Of a DNA stretch of 64,000 nucleotides, positions 1,041 through 42,952 are shown piece after piece. Position 1 is the first letter of the stretch. Every line of letters begins with the position of its first letter. Origin of the DNA: Gammaproteobacteria bacterium (GTDB lineage Bacteria; Pseudomonadota; Gammaproteobacteria; SZUA-229); NCBI GenBank assembly GCA_026195255.1, contig JAPHSS010000020.1, positions 114,887 through 178,886 on the forward strand, in the 5' to 3' direction. Under the pieces are notes generated by a model. The model saw only the letters and a list, made by a program, of their open reading frames with translations, made no database searches and was not told the origin of the DNA. The position numbers and the translations under genes were made by a program.

Positions 1041-1319
1041 CTATCGACGTCCACCTCCCGTAGAACGATTTGTATTCGTTTGACGACTCATAGAACCACT
1101 ATTCATATTGCCCTGCTGAGACTGATTGTTATTTCTATACCTGTATTGATTCTGCTTACCTTGCTGTGCTTTAGATGCATCATCAGCAGGTGTTTGTATA
1201 CGCTCCTGAGCTTGTGTGCGAGTACGTGTCATATCACCTTCTTCGGCAACAACAGCGCCCATTGAACCCAACATTAATAACGCTGCCGCATTAATTGATA
1301 ATCGTTTAAATTTTTTCAT
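1041..1319 (-). CDS. small exported Gln/Asn/Arg-rich protein
   Basis: A 92-residue protein with a clear signal peptide: a basic start (MKKFKR), then a hydrophobic AAALLMLGSMGAVVA ending in a plausible AxA cleavage site at about residue 25. The mature part is about 65 residues of low-complexity polar sequence rich in Gln, Asn, Arg, Ser and Thr, ending in GGGRR. It has no recognisable domain and no cysteines. A GAGGAAAA ribosome site sits just upstream of the ATG. I do not recognise the family. It is probably periplasmic and disordered. It lies in the same orientation as the propeller gene at 1369-2811 and about 50 bases after it, so the two may be co-transcribed. Confidence 0.7.
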   Translation of the reverse strand: MKKFKRLSINAAALLMLGSMGAVVAEEGDMTRTRTQAQERIQTPADDASKAQQGKQNQYRYRNNNQSQQGNMNSGSMSRQTNTNRSTGGGRR

Positions 1320-1368: not shown

Positions 1369-2811
1369 TTACATATTTACGCCTTCACCATTCCAGATGA
1401 AGCTACCCATTAAAATATTGCCGCCTATATAGGTTTTGCTAACCTCCCATGTATCAAGGTCAATTCTAAAAAACACACCATCATGACTCGCTGCACTATA
1501 AAAATATTTCATGTCAAGACTTACGCCCGATGTATGTGACTGTGATTTATAATCAGGTGATGCGGATTCTGCCACTTCTACCGTTCTAACAAGTTCATGT
1601 GTAAGCGTATCGATTACACTCATATATGTAGCGTTATGGTTTGTAATAATTGCCTGATTACGCATAGGTAAAAACGTCGTATGTCCCGCACCCGCACCTG
1701 CATCAACCATGGTTTTAATCTGCATTGTATTTTTATCAATAACGAACACATGGCCCTCTGCCGAACCAATGTAGATACTTAAACCATCCGGATGAAAGTC
1801 TGCGTGATGCGAGCCCATCTCTGTCACATCAAGATTCAGTGGATCATAATCATGCAAATTTACCTGTGCAGTTTGCAGCAAAGCGTTTTTTCTAATTTCA
1901 AAACGAATGATACCCGGTGAAACACCTTCAGATTGATTACCTTCTATTACTGCATAAAACACATTTTTATCTTCTAACGTCATTGTTGACGCCGGTGGCT
2001 GAAAAATGTGATGAACAGATGTTGCTGTATTTAATACAGCCAGCTTATCTCCTGCACGATTCCATAACTGGATTTCACGTGCAGCCCGATCAAGCATAAA
2101 AAAGTGATGATCACTCACCCAGAGAGGATGACCTGTAGATAAAGAACCACCAAAATCGTGCGGTGTTGTTAATACATTTTCACCAACAACTTTAGTCACT
2201 TTATTCATATCTGTACGAATAATACTGGTCATGGCTTTATCTCCGCCGGAAACCAGTGACAATAAAGTGTTGGCGTTAAAATTAGTCGAACGTGGTTTAT
2301 GTTGTAACTCAATGACCCCGTCATTCTCAATCGAATAATTATCAACAACAGTAAGTGATTGCGTTTTGCGTGTCAGCGCATAGGCTTTATTCGGCCCTTG
2401 CTGATCAATACCGTAAGGACCATCACCTGTATTTTCTACCGTTTTTAATAGCGCCATATTATCTACATCAATAATATAAACACGATTCGAATCCCAGTCA
2501 CCATAGTAGGCCAGGTTATCAACTCCATATATATTTTCTGTTATATATGCATCCTGATTAACATATCCAGGTTGCCTAAAACCAAATGGGCCATGGTTTT
2601 TATCTATTGTTTGAAACTGACTCAAATCAGCTGAATTTGTCTTTGCTAAAACTTCTGCATCTTCAATAACATCATTAACTTCACTGACTGTTTCTTCATT
2701 ACAGGCACTCATACCCAGCGCCATCGTGCCACTCAAACAAACAACCATAATTCGCCGTTGATTGTGATTTAACGCACTTCTGATTTTATTTTTCAATGTC
2801 ATCGTTTTCAT
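1369..2811 (-). CDS. lipoprotein with YncE/N2OR-like beta-propeller
   Basis: A protein of about 480 residues with a basic N-terminus, a hydrophobic stretch and a lipobox (LGMSAC) giving a lipidated cysteine. The rest is a seven-blade-type propeller with repeated blade motifs such as RVYIIDVDNM, HVFVIDKNTM and TYMSVIDTLT. Histidines recur in loops: GHPLWVSDHH, SVHHIFQ, GSHHADFHPDG, GAGHTTF, TNHNATY and SQSHTSG. This recalls nitrous-oxide reductase or cytochrome-type propellers that bind metal in the central channel, but no CuA domain is present. I chose the ATG at 2811 because an AGGA box lies just upstream; the frame is open to 2847. The function is unknown. The promoter region is shared with the divergent DUF6502 gene. 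Confidence 0.7.
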   Translation of the reverse strand: MKTMTLKNKIRSALNHNQRRIMVVCLSGTMALGMSACNEETVSEVNDVIEDAEVLAKTNSADLSQFQTIDKNHGPFGFRQPGYVNQDAYITENIYGVDNLAYYGDWDSNRVYIIDVDNMALLKTVENTGDGPYGIDQQGPNKAYALTRKTQSLTVVDNYSIENDGVIELQHKPRSTNFNANTLLSLVSGGDKAMTSIIRTDMNKVTKVVGENVLTTPHDFGGSLSTGHPLWVSDHHFFMLDRAAREIQLWNRAGDKLAVLNTATSVHHIFQPPASTMTLEDKNVFYAVIEGNQSEGVSPGIIRFEIRKNALLQTAQVNLHDYDPLNLDVTEMGSHHADFHPDGLSIYIGSAEGHVFVIDKNTMQIKTMVDAGAGAGHTTFLPMRNQAIITNHNATYMSVIDTLTHELVRTVEVAESASPDYKSQSHTSGVSLDMKYFYSAASHDGVFFRIDLDTWEVSKTYIGGNILMGSFIWNGEGVNM

Positions 2812-2853: not shown

Positions 2854-2907
2854 ACGTGGGATAAATTCCCACGTGCCAATAACTTTATGTGGTAATTATT
2901 CCCACGT
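2854..2907. promoter_or_regulatory. paired palindromic operators in a divergent promoter region
   Basis: Two 21-base palindromes of one design: ACGTGGGA-N5-TCCCACGT (2854-2874, perfect) and ATGTGGTA-N5-TCCCACGT (2887-2907, two mismatches). Their centres are 33 bases apart, close to three helical turns. They sit between the divergent starts at 2811 (minus) and 2949 (plus). On the minus strand TTGACG-N17-TAAAGT and TTGGCA-N18-GTTATA can be read across them. On the plus strand a TATACT -10 candidate lies at 2913-2918 with the second palindrome over its -35 region. The palindromes are seen directly; their operator role is inferred. Confidence 0.6.
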
Positions 2908-2948
2908 CAAGCTATACTCAATATTCCGATGAGCCAGATCAATAAACT

Positions 2949-3845
2949 GTGAGCTGGTTTGCAAACTTCCTCCCCCCGGAAATAACAGAGAACACAGCAG
3001 TTATGAGCCAAAATGGATACACTAAAACTCAGGCAGCATTAACAAAAGCCGTCACCATGCTCTGTAGGCCACTGATTCGCCTGTTAATTGAAAAAGGCAT
3101 AAGCTTTCCACAGTTCCGAGACTTAATGAAAGCGCTTTATATTGATGTCGCAAGCAGTGAGTTTTCTCTAGATGACAAAAAACCCAGTGATAGTCGTATT
3201 TTTGTACTTACGGGAATTCACAGGAAAGATATCAAGCGTATCCGTGAGAATTCAGATCTAATCGCATCGAACGTTAGCAGCAGCGCTTCTTTAAGCGCAG
3301 AGATTATCGCTCGATGGAGCAGCATGCCAGAGTATCTGGATGAAAAAGGCAAACCCGGAAAATTAAAGAAAAACGCAGATCAAAACCACGCTGGTTTTGA
3401 ACAACTTGTGTCAAGTGTAAGCAAAGATGTCCGACCAAAGGTAATTCTTGAAGAATGGTTACGTCTTGATATCGTAAGCCTCAAAGATAACTTTATCAGC
3501 CTCAATAAATCTGCATTTGTTACCAATAAAGAATTTAAAGAAATGGCTTATTACCTTGCTCATAATGTCCATGATCATATCGCAAGCTGTGTAAACAACA
3601 TCCTGGGCGAAGAAGAACCTATGCTCGAACGCAGTGTTTATTACGCATCTCTTAGTGAGTCATCAATAAACAAATTACGTAACATTGCCGATAAAAAAGG
3701 TAATGAATTACTGCAACTTTTAAATAAACAGGCAATCAAGTTTTATGATGCTGACAAACATAAAAAACATGCAACGCATCGTATGCGTCTCGGTGTTTAC
3801 TGGTACCAGGCACAGCTTGATGAAAACAGGAGGCCTGAACAATGA
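2949..3845 (+). CDS. DUF6502 family protein, possible DNA-binding regulator
   Basis: About 298 residues from a GTG at 2949; an ATG at 3003 (MSQNGYTKTQ) is an equally plausible start and begins closer to the conserved region. The body starts with a helical segment (CRPLIRLLIEKGISFPQFRDLMK), followed by SRIFVLTGIHRKDIKRIR. That reads like the recognition helix of a winged helix-turn-helix (RIsxLTGxHRKDV) and is the signature I associate with DUF6502. The C-terminal half is helical with no known motif. It overlaps the next gene by 4 bases (ATGA), so the two are translationally coupled. It lies directly downstream of the twin palindromes, so self-regulation is a reasonable guess, not shown. Confidence 0.7.
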   Translation: MSWFANFLPPEITENTAVMSQNGYTKTQAALTKAVTMLCRPLIRLLIEKGISFPQFRDLMKALYIDVASSEFSLDDKKPSDSRIFVLTGIHRKDIKRIRENSDLIASNVSSSASLSAEIIARWSSMPEYLDEKGKPGKLKKNADQNHAGFEQLVSSVSKDVRPKVILEEWLRLDIVSLKDNFISLNKSAFVTNKEFKEMAYYLAHNVHDHIASCVNNILGEEEPMLERSVYYASLSESSINKLRNIADKKGNELLQLLNKQAIKFYDADKHKKHATHRMRLGVYWYQAQLDENRRPEQ

Positions 3846-4822
3846 AAGCACTTCATAAATTTTTATTTTTACTGCTAATCGTTATGAGCTTCACAGCCTG
3901 TACCTCAATACCTTCGGACCTAACAAAAACGGATGATGAAGATAGTGATATTGGTTTAGGCGGCACGGGTTTATTAGCCAACAATTCAATAGATGAAAAA
4001 GCCATAGGCGGCACAGGTATTCTGGGAAAAATAACCGGCTTTGGCAGTATTTTTGTTAACGGCATTGAAGTTGAGTATAACGATAAAACACCCTTTAGCA
4101 TAAACGGAAAAACAGCAAAACATCAACAATTACACATTGGCGATATTGTTGAGATACTGACCGAAGATACAAACAAATATACGCACGCGATTGCTATCAA
4201 TTTACGCCATGAGGTAATTGGTGAAGTGACATCCATTGACCCTGAAACTTATAGTTTTATGATTAATAACCAAAAAATCATTCAGCCCATAAATACATCA
4301 AGTTTTCCAAAAATCGGCGAACGTGTTGCAGTCGCGGGGTTTAGAATTAACAAACAAACAGTAGTATCTAGTCGTATTACAGCAACAACTAGAGCCAATT
4401 TATTGCGCACTCATATTGATTTACCCTTTAAGGACAAAAGCAAGCAGTGGCTTGTACAGTTGTATGTTAACGAAAAAGCCAGCTTTATGTTAAACGGAGC
4501 ATCTCATACCATTAATATAGATAAAGCGGATACGGCAATGGTTAATTCACTTAATATTAAGATTCTTAAGTTAAAAAAATCGGCATCTAAAGGGCTTATA
4601 TTAAAAGAGTCAATTAATCCCGCCGACATACCTGCAGGGAGACCTCAACTTGAGCCCACTAACTGGAATAGTCGGCATAAAACACCTAATCAACAACCCT
4701 GGGTCAAACCGAGGCAATGGCAAAATAATGGCGCTGGTTCAGGCTCAGCTTCACCCTCAGGAACAGGCCCCAGGAACTTTCAAAATGGAAATAACAGGGG
4801 CCAGAAAACCTTAAACAGATAA
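3842..4822 (+). CDS. DUF5666 domain lipoprotein
   Basis: 326 residues with a lipoprotein signal (hydrophobic core then SFTAC at about residue 20). Two Gly-rich segments follow (GLGGTGLL and AIGGTGILGKITGFGSIFVNGIEV). The latter is the start of a DUF5666-type OB-like beta domain: FGSIFVNG, GDIVEIL, EVIGEVTSI, then a second domain with GERVAVAGF. The C-terminal 60 residues are low-complexity, rich in Pro, Gln, Asn and Gly, and probably disordered. The ATG overlaps the DUF6502 stop; DUF6502-DUF5666 pairs recur in proteobacteria as I know them. The function is unknown, and envelope location is inferred from the lipobox. Confidence 0.75.
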   Translation: MKALHKFLFLLLIVMSFTACTSIPSDLTKTDDEDSDIGLGGTGLLANNSIDEKAIGGTGILGKITGFGSIFVNGIEVEYNDKTPFSINGKTAKHQQLHIGDIVEILTEDTNKYTHAIAINLRHEVIGEVTSIDPETYSFMINNQKIIQPINTSSFPKIGERVAVAGFRINKQTVVSSRITATTRANLLRTHIDLPFKDKSKQWLVQLYVNEKASFMLNGASHTINIDKADTAMVNSLNIKILKLKKSASKGLILKESINPADIPAGRPQLEPTNWNSRHKTPNQQPWVKPRQWQNNGAGSGSASPSGTGPRNFQNGNNRGQKTLNR

Positions 4823-42906: not shown

Positions 42907-42952
42907 AACCGCAAATGAACTCGTTCCCACGCGGGAGCGTGGGAACGAGTTA
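42907..42952. repeat. REP-like palindromic unit C
   Basis: A perfect 15-base inverted repeat AACTCGTTCCCACGC / GCGTGGGAACGAGTT with a 4-base loop, preceded by AACCGCAAAT. The same preceding sequence flanks unit B at 34892-34901, so the copies share more than the hairpin. Located between the AGCS gene start and the fba terminator. Confidence 0.85.

Follow-up and report, generated by a model that had tools for sequence, protein, structure and literature searches.

Two palindromic sites between the divergent propeller and DUF6502 genes are very probably operators of the adjacent DUF6502 protein, which would act as a DNA-binding autoregulator. The palindromes lie in the predicted promoters of most, though not all, DUF6502 genes, a position that fits an autoregulated one-component transcription factor. 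The protein belongs over its whole length to the Pfam family PF20112 (DUF6502; 101.7 bits against a cut-off of 27), a family with no described function; new here are the operator, the autoregulatory promoter layout and the candidate regulon. In the literature searched, neither DUF6502 nor the half-site words were mentioned. By family search, 76 of 274 gammaproteobacterial genomes, about a quarter of those sampled, contain this family of unknown function, which can now be tested as a regulator and has a defined operator.

The two sites and their promoter context

The window, that is the whole stretch of 64,000 nucleotides analysed, contains only these two matches to ACGTGGGA-N5-TCCCACGT when up to three mismatches are allowed, with 0.08 matches expected by chance from dinucleotide shuffles. 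A preliminary description of this DNA had reported twin palindromes of this form; their coordinates and the 33 bp between their centres were confirmed, but the sites are not identical, since site 1 has no mismatch to the form and site 2 has two. In one half of site 2 GTGGTA stands in place of GTGGGA, and this asymmetric deviation is common to 7/7 close ortholog loci, kept as though a weaker site had been selected. Both sites and the flanking TCCCACGTCAA are kept in 7/7 close DUF6502 loci of 65-93% protein identity, counting loci in which the upstream region is covered, and site 1 is conserved in the orthologs L009-L016. The centres of twin pairs (20 pairs, from relatives and the window) are 29-39 bp apart, mostly 32-33 bp, so the strict helical phasing proposed in the preliminary description is not conserved. 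Dimeric and cooperative binding is what we infer from the palindromes themselves. Elsewhere in the window, a strong inverted repeat at 42924-42945 (TTCCCACGCGGGAGCGTGGGAA) carries the TCCCACG word in the opposite arrangement and is likely a hairpin, not an operator.

Features of the window locus (promoter boxes are predictions from sequence; a dot marks a site with no strand)
Feature	Position	Strand	Remarks
Small secreted RTQ-rich repeat protein	1041..1319	-	50 bp behind the propeller gene
Beta-propeller-like lipoprotein	1369..2811	-	lipobox GMSAC; proposed divergent target
Putative operator site 1	2854..2874	.	perfect ACGTGGGA-N5-TCCCACGT, reading ACGTGGGATAAATTCCCACGT
-10 box TAAAGT, propeller promoter	2882..2887	-	predicted; relatives have TATTAT/TAATAT/CATAAT here
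Putative operator site 2	2887..2907	.	imperfect palindrome ATGTGGTAATTATTCCCACGT
Weak -35-like TGGTAA, DUF6502 promoter	2890-2895	+	inside site 2
-35 box TTGACG, propeller promoter	2905..2910	-	predicted; composite consensus TTGACG-N17-CATAAT
-10 box TATACT, DUF6502 promoter	2913..2918	+	predicted; TATAAT in most orthologs
DUF6502 protein, 280 aa	3003..3845	+	PF20112, E=4e-29; ortholog alignments
HTH-like segment SDSRIFVLTGIHRKDIKRI	residues 62-80 of DUF6502		read from sequence
DUF5666-like lipoprotein gene	3842..4822	+	weak PF18914 match, E=1.6e-4, below Pfam cut-off

Predicted promoter boxes were found on both strands, in agreement with the earlier proposal that the sites overlap promoter elements in both directions. 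The spacer of the propeller promoter is 17 bp long and is filled by site 2; counted from the predicted transcription start of the propeller gene, site 1 extends from +1 to about +21. The same arrangement around the operator emerged from 17 composite sites of relatives, which gave the consensus listed in the table. On the opposite strand, site 2 abuts the DUF6502 promoter. On the minus strand at 2926-2942 the window has TTGATCTGGCTCATCGG, and the same leader occurs in L009-L015; this is a TTGAT-N4-type half-palindrome, FNR/DNR-like. In most close orthologs (L012, for instance, has TTGATCTGGATCATCAA) it comes after the -10 box of DUF6502.

Ortholog comparison placed the DUF6502 start at ATG 3003 and not at GTG 2949. 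The likely start of the propeller gene, ATG at 2811, yields a lipoprotein signal peptide. The gene following DUF6502 overlaps its 3' end by 4 bases and scored 22.4 bits against PF18914 (DUF5666; cut-off 27). DUF5666 is clear among the DUF6502 neighbours in relatives, and the genes beside the own-genome paralogue (L138) pass the cut-off; the window gene is proposed to be both operon partner and target of DUF6502.

Pattern searches of the own genome (3.56 Mb in 70 contigs) found the perfect 17-bp core GTGGGA-N5-TCCCAC at three places: in the window, at C17:88115, where it lies between divergent genes with a second site 32 bp off, and at C11:4569, immediately ahead of a CRP/FNR-family gene. Weaker matches at C4 and C29 were taken as chance, both being within coding sequence. 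The motif is thus not common at random positions, and it is present upstream of homologous loci; the suggestion that it could define a regulon gains weight from both its rarity and its conservation. No N5 site was found by the pattern scan in G001, a genome of the same genus (99% complete) without the ortholog.

Palindromes across the DUF6502 family

Relatives were collected from 58 related genomes, with DUF6502 genes recovered down to 20-30% identity. When every gapped palindrome in front of 54 of the DUF6502 genes was counted, TGGGA-N6-TCCCA ranked first (24/54), against 0/162 in control regions and a shuffled maximum of 2, with TGGGA-N5-TCCCA following as the next distinct palindrome. Since this count came after a first look with the TGGGA half-site, it serves as a controlled check and does not amount to a blind discovery. 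Of 90 unique DUF6502 genes from Proteobacteria, 57 have an exact N5 or N6 site in the 4.5 kb upstream, compared with 2 that have one downstream; no recognised site was seen for 24 of 105 DUF6502 rows. No DUF6502 relatives were found in viral contigs.

At the start of DUF6502 the N6 palindrome ends 2-4 bases ahead of the ATG. It usually holds a TATAAT-like -10 located 16-17 bases past a TTGACA-like -35, and the ATG follows 6-8 bases after the -10. This layout suggests a leaderless promoter with the operator placed on the -10.

The pattern TGGGAWWWWNNTCCCA was present in 46/76 genomes with DUF6502 and in 33/198 without it (Fisher p=5e-12, a value that overstates independence, as the genomes are related to one another). 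Matches numbered 135 against 13 for a reversed-pattern control in genomes with DUF6502, and 46 against 26 in those without, and the control itself does not differ between the two groups. The exact GTGGGAWWWWWTCCCAC is found in only 10/274 gammaproteobacterial genomes, and in 8 of these 10 it lies within about 0.2 kb upstream of DUF6502; in the remaining genomes DUF6502 is elsewhere in one and was not found in the other.

The spacer type follows the protein. On both trees, a quick IQ-TREE tree and a FastTree tree which agree on this point, the N5 genes group in a single clade, in which the only other rows are those that have no site. A single change of spacer type accounts for 81 genes (28 N5 and 53 N6), whereas shuffled labels required at least 16. 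Although 11 of the 81 labels were set with one mismatch allowed, exact sites only (27 N5, 43 N6) gave the same result. Five newly found N5 genomes fell in the N5 clade, as predicted before the test. In addition, three genomes (G000, G002 and G004) carry one N5 and one N6 paralogue each, every copy with its own spacer type. Both kinds therefore occur in single genomes with their own spacers, and the spacer tracks the protein and not the genome. This agreement between spacer and protein tree argues for DUF6502 as the likely binder, a candidate already implied in the preliminary description. A family that has changed its operator spacing and kept its half-site, and of which one cell can hold both types, also offers a natural experiment in how such a change comes about.

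A conserved segment of the protein, S-R-I-x-x-L-T-G-x-x-R-K-x-V-x-R, has helix-turn-helix-like spacing; the helix-turn-helix of DUF6502 is proposed from the sequence alone. Within it, every protein of the N5 clade (28/28) has H73, whereas the N6 clade has mostly T/S/N, and this difference would be a place to look for the choice of spacer. A second helix-helix-strand-strand stretch at about residues 132-167 of the model may, with low confidence, be winged-helix-like. AlphaFold gave a weak model of the whole window protein (pLDDT 44, with 7 alignment rows) and pLDDT 63 for residues 11-110. Foldseek and VIA-align searches with the weak model of residues 11-110 produced no convincing match, a result that says nothing either way. 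A profile search against solved structures returned nothing significant for DUF6502, and Pfam and NCBIfam scans of 14 DUF6502 members gave no convincing HTH family match. Membership of the MerR family was considered and rejected, with no MerR match in these scans of the 14 members and a spacer of 17 bp.

Proposed mode of action and alternatives

The likely binder is DUF6502 itself, probably as a dimer. With its HTH-like segment, a symmetric DUF6502 assembly (in the simplest case a dimer) would recognise a pair of TGGGA half-sites, which are 5 bp apart in one clade and 6 bp apart in the other. Protein bound at site 2 would block both the propeller promoter and, back to back with it, the DUF6502-DUF5666 promoter; protein bound at site 1 would mask the start of the propeller transcript. 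Given these positions, default repression with negative autoregulation is most likely, and the repression would be relieved by a signal. That repression is the main action is judged only from where the operators lie. One-component autorepressors of the TetR, MarR and LexA type share this arrangement, in which a palindromic operator sits in the regulator's own promoter or in a divergent one and the autoregulation is apparently negative; unlike them, DUF6502 is about 280 aa long, has its HTH-like segment at residues 62-80 and lacks a convincing match to an HTH family.

DUF6502 could also bind these sites as an activator or as a MerR-like remodeller of the promoter. We regard this as unlikely, though deserving consideration; it is a variant of the repressor reading, and confidence in the one overlaps with that in the other. 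Like the operators of the MerR family, site 2 is flanked by a -35 and a -10 box, and the promoter on the DUF6502 side has a poor -35 (TGGTAA). However, MerR-type promoters have long spacers of 19-20 bp, whereas both the window and the composite consensus have 17 bp, which is already optimal for sigma-70. An activating role would also have to be reconciled with the N6 palindrome overlapping the -10 of promoters that have a good TTGACA-like -35, and with the predicted start site being covered by site 1.

That a different regulator encoded elsewhere, for example of the CRP/FNR, TetR or MarR family, binds the palindromes and DUF6502 is only a target is improbable. Such a regulator could be suspected from the own-genome site before a CRP/FNR-family gene, from the failure of DUF6502 to match any solved DNA-binding protein, and from a few genomes having sites without a detected DUF6502, such as G101 and G238 (88% and 81% complete), where the sites lie beside cytochrome clusters. 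An unlinked regulator, however, would need a preference for spacer length that changes exactly in step with the DUF6502 paralogue, even inside one genome. Moreover, the sites occur far more often in genomes that have DUF6502, and DUF6502 with its DUF5666 partners is the only family seen constantly beside them.

Could the palindromes work in RNA, as hairpins for translational control? The short distance between the N6 palindromes and the ATG is in line with such a role, but with the -10 inside the palindrome and the ATG so close behind, most or all of the palindrome would be missing from the transcript; site 2 of the window, located between a -35 and a -10, is outside both predicted transcripts. 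The hairpin explanation is very improbable for these reasons. Chance palindromes in AT-rich intergenic DNA have no weighty support and can practically be dismissed in view of the expected number in the window, the conservation in orthologs and the empty control regions.

Candidate targets of the two spacer types

In clusters of the order DUF5666-DUF6502-DUF5666, N6 sites precede both DUF6502 and the adjacent DUF5666 lipoprotein gene. Lipoproteins of PF18914 are frequent neighbours of DUF6502, and the operator is borne by DUF6502-DUF5666 pairs as well as by stand-alone DUF5666 genes; the latter had an N6 site at 4 of 11 remote places examined, a proportion that is illustrative because the places were picked by hand. 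DUF5666 has no function assigned; in the literature searched, four papers name it, once or twice in each text. Other remote sites are located ahead of multihaem cytochrome genes (G000:C48, and clusters in G087, G101 and G238) and ahead of a Beta_propel lipoprotein in G309. N6 operators were also noted beside multihaem c7-type cytochrome genes in L143, L211 and L217, and in L211 beside a ferredoxin/pyridine-nucleotide oxidoreductase as well.

The N5 sites of the window clade accompany the DUF6502-DUF5666 pair, the propeller lipoprotein, small secreted repeat proteins and a TPR/beta-barrel outer-membrane protein. Relatives of the RTQ-rich repeat protein in L198 and L203 have a twin operator of their own. 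In the own genome, an N5 site further belongs to the CRP/FNR-family gene mentioned above, which adjoins molybdopterin oxidoreductase and multihaem cytochrome genes (L006, G000:C11:1-5844).

We infer that the targets may be envelope and redox proteins under one signal. In its widest form, which we hold to be evenly balanced between right and wrong, the proposal is that DUF6502 is a new regulator family of several Proteobacteria classes with two branches that share a half-site and differ in spacing, and that the promoters on which one branch acts are leaderless and self-embedded. Both branches together would govern a single envelope-redox regulon made up of DUF5666 and beta-propeller lipoproteins and of multihaem cytochromes of the extracellular type. 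This gives a possible common control for DUF5666 lipoproteins and for several envelope and cytochrome genes that are so far uncharacterised.

Two loci show a further arrangement, in which secreted repeat proteins (L005, 5639-6085; L200, 1772-2098) lie across a twin operator, divergent from a TPR/BBP2-like outer-membrane barrel protein. These repeat proteins had no Pfam match; the mature part starts with AHHPA, and the protein of L005 has DMTRDM repeats. At L202 (G063:C332) a shortened DUF6502 copy has kept its twin operator intact and is followed by a protein judged by eye to be like four-helix copper-storage proteins, and by an outer-membrane efflux protein, a gene order hinting at a link to metals.
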